Source: Eubacteriaceae bacterium (GTDB lineage: Bacteria; Bacillota; Clostridia; Eubacteriales; Eubacteriaceae). Taken from it: a stretch of 64,000 nt of DNA. Every line of letters starts with the position of its first letter. Position 1 is the stretch's first letter. Below the pieces are notes generated by a model. The model was not told the DNA's origin. It saw nothing but the letters and a program-made list of their open reading frames with translations, and made no database searches. This document shows positions 23,357 through 37,160 of the stretch, piece after piece. The stretch lies in assembly GCA_012522805.1 (NCBI GenBank), contig JAAYJS010000016.1:1-64000 (forward strand), read 5' to 3'. Both the position numbers and the translations under genes were made by a program.

Positions 23357-24505
23357 TTAGTACTTCCCATACTCTTGTACAGTTTCGATAAATACTTTTA
23401 GATTTTCTAAGTTTAAATCATTGTCGCGAATGAAACGTTTATTCGGATTGAGTATTAAGTTTCCTTCAGGTCCTAGAATATCAATGATACGTTTCGCCTC
23501 ATCTACAACTTCTTCTTTAGTACCATATCGAATGACATCAAATGGATAAACCCCTGCGATTACATTTCTTGAAGGTACTTTCTCTTTAAGTAACTCAGCT
23601 GTGGGGGCTTCAAATTTTGCTACGTGCATTCCAGGCATATCTTCCAATAAATCTAAGTGTGGACTCCAATCATGTTCATAGAAAACATAAGGCGTAAACC
23701 CTTTTTCTTGAATTGCCATGACAAATTTTTTATAAGTCGGCCAATAGAATTTGATAACATCTTTCGTTCTCATATAGGGTGCCATATGCAAGGGCATAAA
23801 TACTTCTTCCAATTTTTCTGGATTGGGATCCGGCAGTGCATTGATTTTATCAATTTCATAAGCTAGAGCACCTTCGCATGCATCCAGAACCCATTGCGGC
23901 TTTCTTCTCATATCGATAAGCATCGTGGAAAAGCTACGGATATAATCTGCAATATAGTCAAAGGGTGCAAACCCACGACAGACAATTTGCGTTATATCGG
24001 CTCTATCGTGCTTATCCATCAGCTTTTGATTCATACCGTCGTGTAGTTCTCGTACTACCTTCTTTGCTGCAATCATTCGGACATATCCCAATTCCGGCTC
24101 TGTATCGAAAACTTTGTTGACTCTTGGAATTACCTTGTCAACGATAAAAGCCAGTGGATCTTCATTAAATTCAGGGTACTCTTCCATTTCCATTGGGGCA
24201 ATGTCCGGATGTTGAAAAAAACCGTCCGCACCGGGAACCATAAATGAATTTTTAACATAACGATGCACAGCTGCATTCGTCGACGCTGGAGATACAGGTA
24301 TTTGGTCACTGTCCAACTCTTCTGCTATACGATCCGCTGCTTCATAACAATGCTCTATGCTGTATTGTTCTCTAAGTAATGAATAACCATAGTGTTCTAA
24401 CGCTGATTCAATATTCATCGTAATAGTTGTGGGTATTCTTGTCGGTCTTTTCCCCGTATAAAGATCCTTAAATATTTGGTTTCTTTCTTTTTGTTTTGAA
24501 CTCAT
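23357..24505 (-). CDS. UroD-fold methyltransferase, corrinoid-linked type
   Basis: This 382-residue protein belongs to the uroporphyrinogen decarboxylase/MtaA/CmuA superfamily of TIM barrels. The conserved core is FDYIADYIRSFSTML, MPLHMAPYMRTKD (about residues 237-249) and EHDW (277-280). The HxC zinc motif of MtaA/MtbA is absent; Glu277 and Glu299 stand where ligands would be expected and are conserved in the two paralogues at 60-63 kb. It is not a true UroD, since there is no haem pathway here and the fingerprints differ. The ATG at 24505 follows GAAGGAGAGG; an upstream in-frame start is rejected because it overlaps the promoter. It is divergent from an anion transporter gene with a shared dyad motif. 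Confidence 0.8.
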   Translation of the reverse strand: MSSKQKERNQIFKDLYTGKRPTRIPTTITMNIESALEHYGYSLLREQYSIEHCYEAADRIAEELDSDQIPVSPASTNAAVHRYVKNSFMVPGADGFFQHPDIAPMEMEEYPEFNEDPLAFIVDKVIPRVNKVFDTEPELGYVRMIAAKKVVRELHDGMNQKLMDKHDRADITQIVCRGFAPFDYIADYIRSFSTMLIDMRRKPQWVLDACEGALAYEIDKINALPDPNPEKLEEVFMPLHMAPYMRTKDVIKFYWPTYKKFVMAIQEKGFTPYVFYEHDWSPHLDLLEDMPGMHVAKFEAPTAELLKEKVPSRNVIAGVYPFDVIRYGTKEEVVDEAKRIIDILGPEGNLILNPNKRFIRDNDLNLENLKVFIETVQEYGKY

Positions 24506-24551
24506 TGTCTCTGAACCTCTCCTTCTCGGCATTGATGCCTGTTTTGATGCT

Positions 24552-24580
24552 ATTATACCTAGCCAATGTTGAGATCTCAA
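24552..24580 (-). promoter_or_regulatory. promoter of the methyltransferase gene
   Basis: Minus-strand TTGAGA (24575-24580), 17-base spacer, TATAAT (24552-24557). The predicted start near 24545 leaves a ~40-base leader before the ATG at 24505. Confidence 0.72.
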
Positions 24581-24595
24581 TGCAAGGTCAACCAT

Positions 24596-24616
24596 TGTCC
24601 ATTACAAAAATGGACA
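24596..24616. promoter_or_regulatory. dyad operator, copy 1 (TGTCCATT-N5-AATGGACA)
   Basis: Perfect 8-base arms around a 5-base centre. The centre (24606) is about 61 bases upstream of the predicted methyltransferase transcription start, a classical activator position. The same dyad recurs at 24934-24954. Confidence 0.7.
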
Positions 24617-24924
24617 GTTTTTTGAACGCCCTATTTAATATGAATTTTAAATAGTTTTGTAAACACATATTTTTTATGAAGCCTGAAGGCTGCGTATACT
24701 TTAGAGTTTCTTATGCTTTTCGTAATTTATTTGTATCCAATATTTTAGTAAATTCGTCTTTTATGCTTATTATAAAAAGAAAATACTCTTTTTTCTTTTT
24801 ATTAGTATGTATAATCATCAGTGTGACTATCTATCGTCATCCAACACGAGTTCGATAAATCGCCACAACTCGTAGTTTTTTTTGTGGATTGAGTTCTTTT
24901 CTTATATTCTTCTTAAGAATTTGT
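24617..24924. other. AT-rich spacer between divergent promoters
   Basis: Central part of the divergent region between methyltransferase and transporter genes. It contains a plus-strand frame of about 60 codons (24676-24858) with no ribosome site, which I do not regard as a gene. Confidence 0.4.
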
Positions 24925-24933
24925 CCAAAGAAG

Positions 24934-24954
24934 TGTCCATTTTTAAAATGGACA
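24934..24954. promoter_or_regulatory. dyad operator, copy 2 (TGTCCATT-N5-AATGGACA)
   Basis: Same 8-base arms and 5-base spacing as copy 1, embedded in a longer palindrome (24925-24963, outer arms CCAAAGAAG / CTTCTTTGG). The centre (24944) lies about 61 bases upstream of the predicted transporter transcription start. Confidence 0.72.
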
Positions 24955-24969
24955 CTTCTTTGGATCGTA

Positions 24970-24998
24970 TTGCTTTGTATTTCGTAAGTATTTATAAT
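24970..24998 (+). promoter_or_regulatory. promoter of the first DASS transporter gene
   Basis: TTGCTT (24970-24975), 17-base spacer, TATAAT (24993-24998). The weak -35 together with an upstream dyad suggests activator dependence. The leader to the ATG is about 100 bases. Confidence 0.65.
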
Positions 24999-25105
24999 TA
25001 ACCAAATATTGTAAACTTGTGATGCTGAATTGCTTGATAGTAATTTACAATTATAAGTGCAGTAAGTTCGAAAATTGTCAAAAATAATTTCTGCGAGGTT
25101 AAGAA

Positions 25106-26488
25106 ATGTCTAAAAGAGAATTCAACACATCGGACGCGATAAAATGGCTAATCGTAATCGGATTACCCCTCATAGCTTTTTTTGTGCCAACAAGTGGTGT
25201 TTATACTTCTGTCATTAAAAAATTTACAATCGTTACTTTATTTGTAATCGCTGTTTTTGGAACGGAAGTCATACCTAACGTTATCGCGGCATCCATACTT
25301 CCGGTATTTTACATTATTTTAAATATAGCGCCACCGGAAACAGCTTTTGCAGGATGGACAGGCTCAGTTCCTTGGATGGTGTTGGGTGGTTTGCTCATGG
25401 CCGAAATTATGCTCCGATCCGGCATTTTAAACCGTTTATCTTATTGGATCATCGTACGAACGGGTGGATCGTACATGGGTCTACTATTTGGTCTTACGAT
25501 TGCCGGTATTATCGGTCATATCTTAATTCCGGGACAAGCAGTCTATCCTTTTGCTTTTATTACCTTTGGGCTATGTGTTGCCCTCAATTATGGTAAATCC
25601 TTACAATCCGCCGGAATTATGCTGACCGGCTTGTTCTCCACATTTAGTGCCCATTATTTTATTTATAACCCTACTTACGGTATTATTCAAGGTATCGCTG
25701 CAACAGTTGGCGACACCTCCATTACATGGTTTCAGTATCTTTTTCATAACCTTCCTACCATCTTATACGTATTCATTTTAACATTTATTGTAGGAATAGT
25801 GTGTAAACCGAAAAACCACAATGAAAACCCAAGCGTATACGCTAAAACGGAACTGGAGAAAATGGGAAAAATGAGTGTTCAAGAAAAAAAATGTCTGCTG
25901 ATATCCATTCTATTATTAGCCTACTTGATGACAGCGCAATGGCACGGTATAGATCCAGCTTGGGGATTTTTATTTGCAGGTGCCCTGTTTTTCTTACCAG
26001 GCTTCGCTCTCGGTACAAGCGACGACTTAAAAAATGTAAACTACGGTTTGATTATCTTTTGCGCATCTTGTATCAGTATTGGTGTTGTAGCGAATTATGT
26101 CGGTATTGGTCAAGTCTTAGCCGATACTCTCATCCCTGTTGTCGAAAATTTAGGTACAGCTGGTTTCTTTACCATGATCTTTGCGATGTTATTTCTTGGC
26201 AATTTCGTTATGACACCTCTTGGACTCTATGCAGCTCTCACTGTACCGCTAGCACAGATCGGCTTAACCATGGGTGTATCCGTTCTAACCATCAGCTATG
26301 CCATCATGCAACTAGGAACAGAAGTTATTCTTCCCTATGAGTGGGCCCTCGCATTGCTATTTTTTTCTTTCGATGTGATCGATCTCAAAAGTTTTGTAAA
26401 ATTATTTGGCATTCGAACCCTATTGAGTTTCGTATTCTTGCAATTAATAACGATTCCCTATTGGAAGCTCATCGGTCTTATCGTATAG
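25106..26488 (+). CDS. DASS (SLC13)-family anion symporter 1
   Basis: This 460-residue membrane protein has about 11-12 spans. It resembles divalent anion:Na+ symporters (SLC13/CitT/DASS), with AFAGWTGSVPWMVLGG in the first half and a repeated pattern (LGNFVMTPLGLYAALTVPL) in the second. The family imports di- and tricarboxylates or sulfate; the actual ligand is unknown. It is divergent from the methyltransferase gene and shares its dyad motif, so it may import the methyltransferase substrate. It is homologous to the second transporter at 28621 but clearly diverged. Confidence 0.85.
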   Translation: MSKREFNTSDAIKWLIVIGLPLIAFFVPTSGVYTSVIKKFTIVTLFVIAVFGTEVIPNVIAASILPVFYIILNIAPPETAFAGWTGSVPWMVLGGLLMAEIMLRSGILNRLSYWIIVRTGGSYMGLLFGLTIAGIIGHILIPGQAVYPFAFITFGLCVALNYGKSLQSAGIMLTGLFSTFSAHYFIYNPTYGIIQGIAATVGDTSITWFQYLFHNLPTILYVFILTFIVGIVCKPKNHNENPSVYAKTELEKMGKMSVQEKKCLLISILLLAYLMTAQWHGIDPAWGFLFAGALFFLPGFALGTSDDLKNVNYGLIIFCASCISIGVVANYVGIGQVLADTLIPVVENLGTAGFFTMIFAMLFLGNFVMTPLGLYAALTVPLAQIGLTMGVSVLTISYAIMQLGTEVILPYEWALALLFFSFDVIDLKSFVKLFGIRTLLSFVFLQLITIPYWKLIGLIV

Positions 26489-26536
26489 TAATCGGCTCAT
26501 TGATGTATCCGTGGCACCAAGGCAATAAAATTAATA

Positions 26537-26598
26537 GCAAATAGGGATGTCCCCCGGGTTGTGACTCAAGTCACAACCCGGGGGACATCCCTATTTGC
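26537..26598. repeat. 62-base perfect palindrome (REP-like)
   Basis: Two 30-base arms (26537-26566 and 26569-26598) are exact complements around a two-base loop CA. The element is GC-rich (CCCCCGGG core) in an AT-rich setting and begins 49 bases after the transporter stop. It could end transcription from both sides but lacks a good T-run. Such GC-rich palindromes resemble REP elements moved by RAYT transposases; no RAYT gene is in the window. Confidence 0.75.
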
Positions 26599-26613
26599 TT
26601 TATGTTTTGATCG

Positions 26614-28125
26614 TCATTCTTTTTCTTGAATGTGGAATTGCACCAATCGATTGATTTTTTCTTCAACAACCTCTCTGTTTTTTTCATATTGACTCATTTT
26701 ATTCCACAACTCATCATAATATGCGTAGAGTGTGCTGTGTAAAATCGGTTGATTGCTGTGGATGGCATCAAAATTTTCACCCATTACAAAAGATGCCCGA
26801 TGTTGTTTGATAAAGATACACATCTGATTAAAAAAATCGTTTTTGCGATAAGTTCCGAAACCCAATTCAAAATTTTGATAAGAATTCATTAAGTCTACCA
26901 TGTATTTTAAATGATAACAATAATACTCTTTTTTTACATATACAGGCTCTCCCACGAGTATCGAAAGGTGTTTGTGTATCAGGCTTTTTTGATTAATTAA
27001 TATATTTTCAATGAAAATTTCATCTAAAAAAATACGATGTCTAAAATGACGGATATGTTTTTCAAACAACCTATTAAAGCCTTCATAATGATATAACAAC
27101 TTTTGAGTTTTTTCTTCCGGCACACCATTGTCTTGTAAAATACTCACCAGGATCTCTTTAGATGAAAACAACCAGAAAGGAACTTCACATTTAAAGATCA
27201 CTTCACCCGTATGTAAATATAAATTTAAATCTTTGTCGATCAATGTGTGAATATCCATGTTTTTTATATGTTCAAACATGGGATTGCATTGCGATTTTGC
27301 GGCTTCAAATAAGGTAGTACAATGATCGACAAGTGTTTGATCAGAGGTGATTTGAACATTCATCTTACTTGTAAAACCTCTTGCAGACATACCAAATAAT
27401 GCAACTTTACCTTTTAAAACCAATAAACTTGGCTTAAAGAGATCGGAGCCTTCTTGGCTGATGCAATAAGCTTCTACCTTTCCTCGAAGATAAAACTCCA
27501 ACCAATCCTTAATATTGAGTAGTCTTTCCTCTAATTTTCGATCAACATAACTTAAAGTTGTTATTTTGTGACCCTTTTCAATAATTCGCTCATACTTTTG
27601 AAACCATTTTTCATGATATTCCTGGTCCTTATATTTCTATGAAAATCGATCATAATCCATAATCATCAGCTCTTCTTGATATGGCGACTCCAACATTAAA
27701 TCTACGATATCCAGCGCTGCTTTTTGTCGACCATCTTCACCTTTATACAAAACATTTTGAGTTATATTTACATTCCGGTTGTTAATCCGCTTTGACAAAA
27801 AATAATTCTTTTTTTCTTCCTCTAACAGCCATTTTTTAAATAAAATTTTTAATTTTTCGTCCGAAACATCTATATTGACGGAAGGATAAGCTGTACGCAA
27901 AATACTTAGAATATTTTGATATTCTACACTAGAATCCAAGGCAATAAAAAAATTAACAATCGCGTCCAAAACTTGATTATCTGGTGTTAATCGACGCTTT
28001 CCGGTTCTCCATTTGCTAATTAACGAATCGTCAACATGAAGATAATTTGCCATATCTATGCCTTTTACTCGAAATAAATCCATTAAATAACCTAGTTTTG
28101 ATTTATTTTTTTGCACTTTACTCAC
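26614..28125 (-). pseudogene. HTH regulator with one in-frame amber codon
   Basis: This is one continuous frame of 504 codons broken by a single TAG at 27637-27639 (codon 163). The first part (162 residues) has an XRE-like HTH (MANYLHVDDSLISKWRTGKRR, about residues 25-45). After the TAG the same frame runs on through KYKDQEYHEKWF to a 295-residue region rich in aromatic and charged residues that I do not recognise. No ribosome site or good start follows the TAG. Nonsense mutation, sequencing error or programmed readthrough are possible. The gene sits between two anion transporters and probably regulated them. The GTG at 28125 is almost at the predicted transcription start; GTG 28116 is an alternative. 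Confidence 0.65.
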
Positions 28126-28133
28126 CTCTTACA

Positions 28134-28162
28134 ATTTTAGCACACAAGAAAAATGGTGTCAA
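28134..28162 (-). promoter_or_regulatory. promoter of the HTH regulator gene
   Basis: Minus-strand TTGACA (28157-28162), 17-base spacer, TAAAAT (28134-28139). Transcription would begin near 28127, only a few bases before the possible GTG starts, so the message may be nearly leaderless. Confidence 0.7.
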
Positions 28163-28620
28163 TTTTATGTCTATTTTATAACTTGACAATTGATTCCAAG
28201 CTCTTGTTTAACTACAAATACTCCTATATAATCGCTTTAACAATTGGATGCTTCGCAATTTACTAAAAGAGGCGCCCTTTCACGGCTTATATGAGCATTA
28301 AAATTGTAAATGAATTTGGTTTTTAGATGATCTGTTAATGTTGAATGATTGTTTTACCACTATTGTTGTGTTTTAAAATTTGACACTAACTGGTCAATTT
28401 GAAATCATATCCTCCATTATTTTCATAGTACAGGGTCGTGAACGAGTCGCCCACGAAAACCAAATCTTTTAAGATAGTACATCTCTTTTAATAGATTAAG
28501 ACTTTTTTTTATTCAAAAAATAATATCGATACCGATTCGATAAAATGCGGACGACATCATTAAGTTGTTATCAAGATGATTTTTATCATCTCAGATAAAT
28601 ATTAGAAAGGGAGTTTTACT
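28163..28620. other. leader region of second transporter gene
   Basis: This AT-rich spacer has no gene. It has no copy of the TGTCCATT dyad. A small hairpin AGATGAT-TTTT-ATCATCT (28574-28591) lies just before the ribosome site (AGAAAGGGAG) of the transporter gene. I could not pick a confident promoter. Confidence 0.4.
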
Positions 28621-30006
28621 ATGTCAGAAATCTCAAAAACTAAAACCTCGAGAAAAGAGATCATCATGTGGGCAGTCGTTATCATTATACCGATTATCAT
28701 TATGATGACACCAACTTCGGAAAGCTTTACACCGGAACTGCGAAAATATGCAGCAATTACCTTGCCATCGATTCTGTTATTTGTGTTTAATATTATCCCA
28801 AATGCAGTTACTGCAATCGGATTGATGATTCTGTATACTGTATTTAACGTTGTTCCGAGCACAGTTGCCTTTGCCGCATGGACGGGCTTTATACCTTGGA
28901 TGGTTATCGGTGGGTTTCTATTAGCAAATGTACTTGACAGAATAGGATTGCTCAATCGCATCGCCTATTGGAGTATTCTGAAAACCGGAGGTACCTACAA
29001 CGGAATTATTGCCGGTTTAGGACTTGGTGGTATCATCCTGAATATACTGGCGCCAGGACGTGTGTACGTTGCCTTTGCCGCTTTGGCTTATGGTATCTGT
29101 CGTGCACTCAATTTAAGCATTTCAAAAGAAAGCGCCGGAATTATGATGACTGGATTTATATCCTCATGGTTCCCCACATTTTTCTTATATAATTCAAACT
29201 TTGCAACCATACAAAGTATCGGTTCAGCTGTAACGGATATTCCTGTTACTTACATTCAGTACTTATACCATAATGTACCTTATGTGATTTGGTATTTTCT
29301 AGTTTTATGGATGATCGCAAAAATCACCAAGCCAAAACAAGAGTTGGATGTTAAAGATTTTGTAGCCGAAGAATATGAAAAGTTAGGAAAGACCACTGTA
29401 GAAGAATACCAAGGTATAGCAGTAACCGGAATCTTGCTCTTATTCCTTTTAACAACGAACATTCATAAAATTAATATCGGTTGGGGATTTGCCTTTATTC
29501 CGTTTTTATTCTTTTTACCCGGATTTAAAATCGGTACAGTAGAGGACTTGAGAACGATTAATTATCAAATGGTTATCTTTTCTACCGGTGCCTTGGGCAT
29601 TGGGCAAGCAGCCAGCCACTTGGGCTTAGGTACCATGATTGCAGAGGCCTTGATGCCCATCTTAGTTGGGAAAAGCGCGTTTTTCGTCTTCGCTGCCGTA
29701 TGGGTTACGGTTGTCATTGCAAAGTTCTTCCTAACACCTTTGGCGGTTTATGCAACTCTAATTGTACCACTGACTGAAATTGCATTGAGTTTAAACATCG
29801 ATCCATTACCGGTTTATTATGCCGTAAATGTCGCAACATCGGAATTGTTGTTGCCATACCAATGGGCATTGGTCTTGATCTTTACTGGTTATGGTCTGGT
29901 GGCTACAAAAGACTTTATCAAAATCTGGGGGATAAAGATGGCCATGAGTATCGTTTTCCTCCTAGCCATCGCCGTTCCCTATTGGATGTTTATCGGTCTT
30001 ATTTAA
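28621..30006 (+). CDS. DASS (SLC13)-family anion symporter 2
   Basis: This 461-residue transporter is a paralogue of the one at 25106. Matching blocks include AFAAWTGFIPWMVIGG, LLNRIAYW, and FFLTPLAVYATLIVPL, in the same positions. About 11-12 membrane spans are expected. The substrate is a carboxylate or similar anion by family, otherwise unknown. AAAGGGAG precedes the ATG. It is separated from the first transporter by the amber-interrupted regulator. Confidence 0.85.
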   Translation: MSEISKTKTSRKEIIMWAVVIIIPIIIMMTPTSESFTPELRKYAAITLPSILLFVFNIIPNAVTAIGLMILYTVFNVVPSTVAFAAWTGFIPWMVIGGFLLANVLDRIGLLNRIAYWSILKTGGTYNGIIAGLGLGGIILNILAPGRVYVAFAALAYGICRALNLSISKESAGIMMTGFISSWFPTFFLYNSNFATIQSIGSAVTDIPVTYIQYLYHNVPYVIWYFLVLWMIAKITKPKQELDVKDFVAEEYEKLGKTTVEEYQGIAVTGILLLFLLTTNIHKINIGWGFAFIPFLFFLPGFKIGTVEDLRTINYQMVIFSTGALGIGQAASHLGLGTMIAEALMPILVGKSAFFVFAAVWVTVVIAKFFLTPLAVYATLIVPLTEIALSLNIDPLPVYYAVNVATSELLLPYQWALVLIFTGYGLVATKDFIKIWGIKMAMSIVFLLAIAVPYWMFIGLI

Positions 30007-36527: not shown

Positions 36528-37160
36528 ATGGCAGATTGGACAAAATTAACACAAGCAGTTGGCGATTTGGAAGAGGATGATGTATTAGATATCCTTAACG
36601 AGTTCATGGCAACAAACCCGAGCGAAGAAGAAGCACAAGAAGTTGTAGCAGCTTGCCAAGCAGGTATGGGAATTGTTGGTGATCTTTTCGAAGAAGGCGA
36701 ATATTTCGTAGGAGACTTAATTTTCGCTGGCGAATTGTTAACAGATGCTATCAATGTAGTTAAACCGGCTTTAGGTGGAGATACCGCTGGTAATGTTGGT
36801 ACGATTTTATTAGGAACCGTACACGGTGACCTTCACGATATCGGCAAAAACATTTTCAGAAGTATGTCTGAAGCTGCAGGCTTTGAAGTTGTAGACTTAG
36901 GCATTGACGTAGCAGTAGATACTTTTGTTGAAAAAGCAAAAGAAATTAAACCGGATATCATCGGTATGTCAGGCGTTTTAACATTAGCGATTGACTCCAT
37001 GAAAGAAACCGCAGAAGCTATCAAAGGCGCAGGCGTTGAAGCTAAAATGATCATCGGTGGAAACCCTGTTACTCAAGAAGCTATGGAATATGTCGGCTCT
37101 GACGCATTTACAACCAATGCTGCAGAAGGCGTAAAAATTTGCCAAGGCTGGGCAGAATAA
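36528..37160 (+). CDS. corrinoid (methyltransferase cognate) protein
   Basis: This 210-residue protein has an N-terminal helical cap domain (about 1-90) and a C-terminal Rossmann B12-binding domain with DLHDIGKN (DxHxxG, residues 101-106, His103 the lower cobalt ligand), SGVLT and GGNPV. It matches MtaC/MtbC/MttC-type proteins, which carry a methyl group between a substrate methyltransferase and a second methyltransferase to folate or CoM. It is a lone gene with a strong promoter and terminator, so it may serve several methyltransferases. The UroD-fold genes in this window are candidate partners. Confidence 0.92.
   Translation: MADWTKLTQAVGDLEEDDVLDILNEFMATNPSEEEAQEVVAACQAGMGIVGDLFEEGEYFVGDLIFAGELLTDAINVVKPALGGDTAGNVGTILLGTVHGDLHDIGKNIFRSMSEAAGFEVVDLGIDVAVDTFVEKAKEIKPDIIGMSGVLTLAIDSMKETAEAIKGAGVEAKMIIGGNPVTQEAMEYVGSDAFTTNAAEGVKICQGWAE

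Follow-up and report, generated by a model that had tools for sequence, protein, structure and literature searches.

Acetogens carry dozens of methyltransferase systems. Regarding the control of these systems, a 2026 study calls it largely unexplored, and for one of them, the chloromethane system CdmBCA of Acetobacterium dehalogenans, no regulatory system was identified (PMC13222342). A described case comes from Methanosarcina acetivorans, in which MsrDE induces mtaCB2 and represses mtaCB3, as stated in a paper citing Bose and Metcalf 2008 (PMC11619418). As for the geometry of a bacterial activator site, class I activation by CRP, centred at -61.5 at the E. coli lac promoter, is the model (PMC6301791).

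The locus compared here with these systems lies in a window of 64,000 nucleotides from a Eubacteriaceae bacterium (assembly GCA_012522805.1, contig JAAYJS010000016.1). It contains the genes for a UroD-superfamily methyltransferase (MT1), two anion transporters (TR1 and TR2) and a helix-turn-helix (HTH) protein (REG), and it has three dyads, one of them degenerate, each placed in front of a predicted promoter. Judging from sequence, these dyads are likely to be operators of REG, which would activate its targets from about -61 and repress its own gene.

Dyads, predicted promoters and putative target genes

An earlier note on this DNA had described the pattern TGTCCATT-N5-AATGGACA as occurring twice between MT1 and TR1; both dyads were found with zero mismatch, at 24596-24616 (reverse strand, MT1 side) and 24934-24954 (forward strand, TR1 side), 338 bp apart. 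The two promoters assigned to them are also present: the leftward one (24552..24580, reverse strand) consists of TTGAGA (24580..24575), a 17-nt spacer and TATAAT (24557..24552), with an expected transcription start near 24545, and the rightward one (24970..24998, forward strand) of TTGCTT, a 17-nt spacer and TATAAT, with an expected start near 25005. Both are good sigma-70-type promoters with imperfect -35 boxes. Each dyad stops 15 bp short of its own -35 box, which starts 26 bp from the dyad centre, so that both centres fall at about -61, as had been proposed.

As for the frequency of the dyad, a search of the whole genome (2,017,464 bases) returned the exact pattern at these two positions only and the reversed control returned none; hence the dyad is not a scattered repeat, a reading that two copies per genome rule out. 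With up to three mismatches, four matches occurred in the window against 0.37 expected, a count that none of 100 shuffles reached, while a one-mismatch search of the genome for further targets gave just two extra matches, similar to the control.

The right dyad sits in a perfect palindrome of 41 bp (24924..24964), of which it forms the core; the arms of this palindrome measure 20 bp, against at most 10 in 500 shuffled sequences of that length, and a third half-site, TGTC (24922..24925, forward strand), stands 12 bp upstream of it; the left dyad has 8-bp arms, and its match to the upstream third half-site is weak.

Regarding the target genes, MT1 (23357..24505, reverse strand) encodes 382 amino acids and is 75% identical to its orthologue in Alkalibaculum sporogenes; it matches the URO-D family (PF01208) at the cut-off, and the orthologue scores well above it. 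The sole solved structure found by sequence was CdmB, with an E-value of 1.5e-16. Demethylation, the role proposed for MT1 in the earlier note, has its basis in this UroD-type methyltransferase fold. Since the genome encodes 13 corrinoid-binding proteins (B12-binding_2) and has 23 MT1-like matches, it is plausible that MT1 transfers methyl groups through a corrinoid partner, although none of the 13 adjoins it. Within the window, a B12-binding_2 corrinoid protein is encoded at 36543-36761 and is a possible partner for a methyltransferase of the window; two further MT1-like genes lie at 60.2-63.2 kb.

TR1 (25106..26488, forward strand, 460 aa) and TR2 (28621..30006, forward strand, 461 aa) are DASS/CitMHS-type anion transporters, with Na_sulph_symp/CitMHS Pfam domains above cut-off over their whole length. 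Their scores for the NCBIfam dass model, 74.6 and 63.5 bits respectively, are below its cut-off of 198.6 bits, for which reason they are placed in a divergent branch of DASS. Directly after TR1, at 26527-26608, there is an inverted repeat with 40-nt arms that are 90% complementary, a 2-nt loop and GGGGGACATCCCTATTT ends; a terminator and a REP-like element are both possible readings.

Conservation and spacing of the proposed operator

Among 61 related genomes, the exact dyad was found elsewhere once only, in A. sporogenes M08DMB, a species that GTDB assigns to another family and in which the orthologues of MT1 and TR1 flank it. The 15-nt gap is kept at both orthologous promoters, and the boxes in front of TR1 are identical (TTGCTT-N17-TATAAT). 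The remainder of the intergenic sequence has diverged. The same locus of A. sporogenes (L057) also has a second methyltransferase gene (MT2), TR2 and an uninterrupted REG of 500 aa. At 7769-7825 of L057, a perfect palindrome of 57 bp occupies the place of the 41-bp one of the window; the outer arms differ between the two, yet symmetry is perfect in each, a hint of arm-to-arm correction or of selection for symmetry.

Cassettes of the same types, with REG, UroD methyltransferases and DASS transporters, are found in Eubacterium-like genomes, for instance E. callanderi FD. Their REG proteins are 28-30% identical overall to that of Alkalibaculum in one clade and ~21% in the other, and their intergenic sites read TGTCAATT-N6-AATTGACA or TGTCAAAT-N5-ATTGACA; the half-site varies by REG clade, as TGTCCATT, TGTCAATT, TGTCAAAT or TGTCATTG. 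The genome of the window itself has a second cassette, composed of REG, methyltransferase, transporter and methyltransferase genes, with the same site geometry (L065, 5615-11375; cassette C4). In two Eubacterium genomes (L061, 8887-9460, and L059, 6050-6620), a decayed transporter gene was seen by eye between the operator and MT2.

This pattern of conservation bears on the idea that the inverted repeats are RNA or DNA hairpins (terminator, attenuator or cruciform) or a mobile repeat. Long perfect palindromes, of 41 bp here and of 57 bp at the equivalent position in A. sporogenes, speak for it, but the outer arms are not conserved between the two species, while the core and the gap to the promoter are. 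Moreover, both dyads of the MT1/TR1 region are upstream of their promoters, outside either predicted transcript and without a T-run behind them, the copy at 24596 is short, with arms of 8 bp, Rfam has no match in 20-32 kb, and a mobile repeat would be at odds with the lack of any further copy in the genome. This explanation is therefore given almost no weight.

With regard to spacing, offsets of 0-44 bp were scanned, and whenever a TTG...TA promoter followed a cassette dyad, it did so at 15 nt, on the methyltransferase or transporter side, or at 5 nt, on the REG side; one dyad of the A. sporogenes locus has both. All target promoters in the scanned cassettes thus have an upstream site near -61 with the 15-nt gap to the -35 box. 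The geometry was expressed as a composite rule, TGTC-N13/14-GACA-N15-TTG-N20-TANNNT, which gave 15 matches in the 61 genomes, 14 in REG cassettes and one elsewhere (G026), against four for the reversed control. Genomes with a close REG had the rule in 6/6 cases and the others in 1/55 (Fisher p ~1e-7), a co-occurrence that is not fully blind because the rule was derived from some of the same genomes. The count in 391 genomes of the class comes closer to a blind test; it gave 21 matches, compared with ~20 in the reversed control, meaning that the rule is specific only beside REG.

The dyad is extended by a third half-site: upstream of its left arm, at a distance of 11-12 bp, TGTC is exact in 16 of 21 sites, with a background of 0.0018 per position, and three more sites have three of the four letters; at the TR1 site of Alkalibaculum it is shifted to 15 bp. 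The full operator can be written as TGTCAAT-N4/5-TGTC[CA]ATT-N5/6-AAT[TG]GACA, followed after exactly 15 nt by TTGnnn-N17/18-TAnnnT. The dyad and gap kept in another GTDB family, and the co-occurrence with REG in the 61 genomes, give good support to the claim that the two promoters would have a common regulator acting from a fixed position.

The candidate regulator and its own promoter

The HTH gene at 26.6-28.1 kb, which the earlier note had put forward as the binder, is REG (26614..28125, reverse strand), a protein with a predicted N-terminal Xre-like HTH and a tandem phospholipase D (PLD)-like C-terminal part. No Pfam or NCBIfam family matched REG above cut-off: for Pfam HTH_3 the E-value was 0.043 for the A. 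sporogenes protein and 0.0026 for the best of 23 homologues, all under the cut-off, and profile matches in the PDB to Xre antitoxins had E-values of 0.04-0.08. In an AlphaFold2 model built with the 23 homologues (pLDDT 84.8), the N-terminal part, for DNA binding, is helical, and the rest forms two PLD-like halves. Foldseek aligned this model with phospholipases D (E 3e-8), NucT and TrmB (E 2e-4); overall TM-scores were low, presumably because the two PLD-like halves are arranged differently. Of the 23 homologues, 21 lack the HxK(x4)D (HKD) motif, and the two matches share one position in a predicted helix; this absence suggests that the PLD-like tandem domain of the model is a sensor rather than an enzyme. 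As for the TrmB family of Pfam (PF01978, sensor domain), it had no match in the 23 members, and the HTH resembles Xre proteins.

In the assembly, REG is split by an in-frame TAG (27637..27639, reverse strand) at codon 163, which is Trp in all nine aligned full-length cassette REG proteins (W162 in Alkalibaculum). Identity to the Alkalibaculum protein is 65% before the stop and 47% after it. Since the part behind the stop is still that similar, and its third codon positions still change most, the TAG is, as read from these alignments, a recent change or an assembly error. Read-through by pyrrolysine was considered and rejected: no PylS scored above cut-off (28 bits versus 178), and weak matches occurred in nearly all control genomes too. 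If the TAG is real, the strain makes an HTH fragment without the sensor, and the switch may be stuck on or off; in this strain, then, the interruption may have damaged or altered the switch. The genome encodes one other full-length member of the REG family, in cassette C4, 30% identical in the first 162 residues.

The interruption is also the point in favour of another regulator binding the dyads, with REG in the cassette by chance, because the operators of this genome are intact while REG is not. Remote homologues of REG argue otherwise. Two of them (G223 and G134), ~22% identical to the A. sporogenes regulator and from other families of the class, have the site layout directly upstream, with a TGTC or near-TGTC half-site 11 bp upstream. 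Both matches belong to the 391-genome test and lie outside the training genomes, and the surroundings of REG make up very little of the DNA searched. In G134 the divergent genes encode an isochorismatase and a hydantoinase, with no methyltransferase, and in G223 the contig stops just beyond the site. Such a site was nearby in two of the 17 remote loci scanned, most being without one. Since these homologues carry the layout without recognised methyltransferase or DASS neighbours, the site goes with REG and not with the target enzymes. Conversely, a genome with MT1 homologues (~46% identical) and no close REG, its REG match being remote and partial, has no such site (G040), and the half-site differs by REG clade. 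For these reasons, control by another protein appears improbable, and the assignment of the HTH gene as the probable binder is supported.

The third, degenerate dyad, TGTCTATTTTATAACTTGACA, which the earlier note had not listed, lies at 28168..28188 (forward strand) with the same geometry as the other two, in front of a promoter toward TR2 (28204..28232, forward strand; TTGTTT-17-TATAAT). The site corresponding to it in A. sporogenes precedes MT2, with TR2 behind MT2. In the window, tblastn found no remnant of MT2 before TR2, so that the TR2 leader would be ~380 nt long (28233-28620), where the MT2 gene fills the corresponding place in Alkalibaculum. On the other side of this dyad, and 5 nt from it, is the promoter of REG (28134..28162, reverse strand), with TTGACA (28162..28157), a 17-nt spacer and TAAAAT (28139..28134). 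The third half-site of this operator, TGTC (28157..28160, forward strand), is on the opposite strand part of this -35 box: in both the window and the A. sporogenes locus, the upstream TGTCAA is the TTGACA of REG. In a further cassette (L063), the -35 box of REG was read by eye as the left half-site. Because the upstream half-site is the -35 box of REG, binding of REG at the third operator should shut REG down.

Proposed mechanism and comparison with known systems

The mechanism proposed from these data is the following. REG would be a one-component regulator whose PLD-like tandem domain probably senses a ligand, in turn probably a methylated anion or the demethylated product. With its ligand, REG would bind the three half-sites as an oligomer near -61 and recruit RNA polymerase to the weak -35 boxes, in the manner of class I activators, so that uptake (TR1 and TR2) and methyl transfer (MT1) would be switched on jointly. 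At the third operator, REG would cover its own -35 box and limit its own synthesis, while the divergent gene is switched on.

Xre-type HTH proteins are often repressors, and the sign of regulation needs to be weighed, the term activator being based solely on the position of the sites and on the imperfect -35 boxes. The same protein at the same operators could be a repressor that occupies the -61 sites as long as no ligand is present, for instance through a loop between the two dyads, and releases them with the substrate. Besides that general tendency of the HTH type, the paired identical operators that flank the divergent promoter region fit with this possibility, and the overlap of the REG -35 box with a half-site makes repression likely, at least of the REG promoter. 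However, the promoter stays unobstructed when one site is centred near -61 at a constant distance of 15 nt, and a loop would not require an identical gap at isolated promoters, such as those of MT2 in Eubacterium and of cassette C4. In addition, many of the promoters have a poor -35 box (TTGAGA, TTGCTT, TTGTTT, TTGATT, TTGTGC), as expected if they need help. Repression of the target genes is thus deemed unlikely.

If REG is the activator, the operator is a probable on-switch for the uptake and use of methyl groups, and the rule allows base-by-base predictions of the methyltransferase and transporter genes that switch together and of the protein that switches them. Since each transporter-methyltransferase pair would have a common switch, the inducer, once found, would also reveal the substrate.

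In comparison with CdmBCA, the locus likewise has a methyltransferase of the UroD superfamily, but MT1 is a distant relative and has no corrinoid protein beside it. As in CRP-dependent promoters, the dyad is near -61 (22 bp for CRP), upstream of the -35 box and in fixed phase to RNA polymerase; in contrast, the REG family is unrelated to CRP, the arms are TGTC..GACA and not TGTGA..TCACA, there is an extra upstream half-site, the regulon is local and not global, and the contact with polymerase is putative. Accordingly, an activator site near -61 is of a known kind, while no description of the REG family or of its three-part operator was found in the open-access literature, so that these two appear to be undescribed. 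Whether REG defines a new family of the following kind is evenly balanced in our estimate: an autorepressor in which an Xre-like HTH is joined to a tandem PLD fold that has lost catalysis, which recognises three half-sites at a constant distance from the promoter, and which is spread through the class, with a half-site that drifts with the recognition helix per clade; such a family would provide the local control so far missing for many UroD methyltransferase/DASS cassettes in acetogens.

The Msr regulators probably belong to a different protein family from REG. They are archaeal, unlike REG, and they are similar in being dedicated regulators that switch isozymes of corrinoid methyltransferases. 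Finally, TrmB combines a winged helix with a single PLD-like domain. Although TrmB is archaeal, and REG differs from it in its Xre-like HTH, its two PLD-like halves and a global TM-score of 0.2-0.3, TrmB and TrmBL2 (PDB 3qph, 2f5t and 5box), as identified with Foldseek, share with the REG model the combination of an HTH and a PLD-like sensor fold in a transcription regulator.
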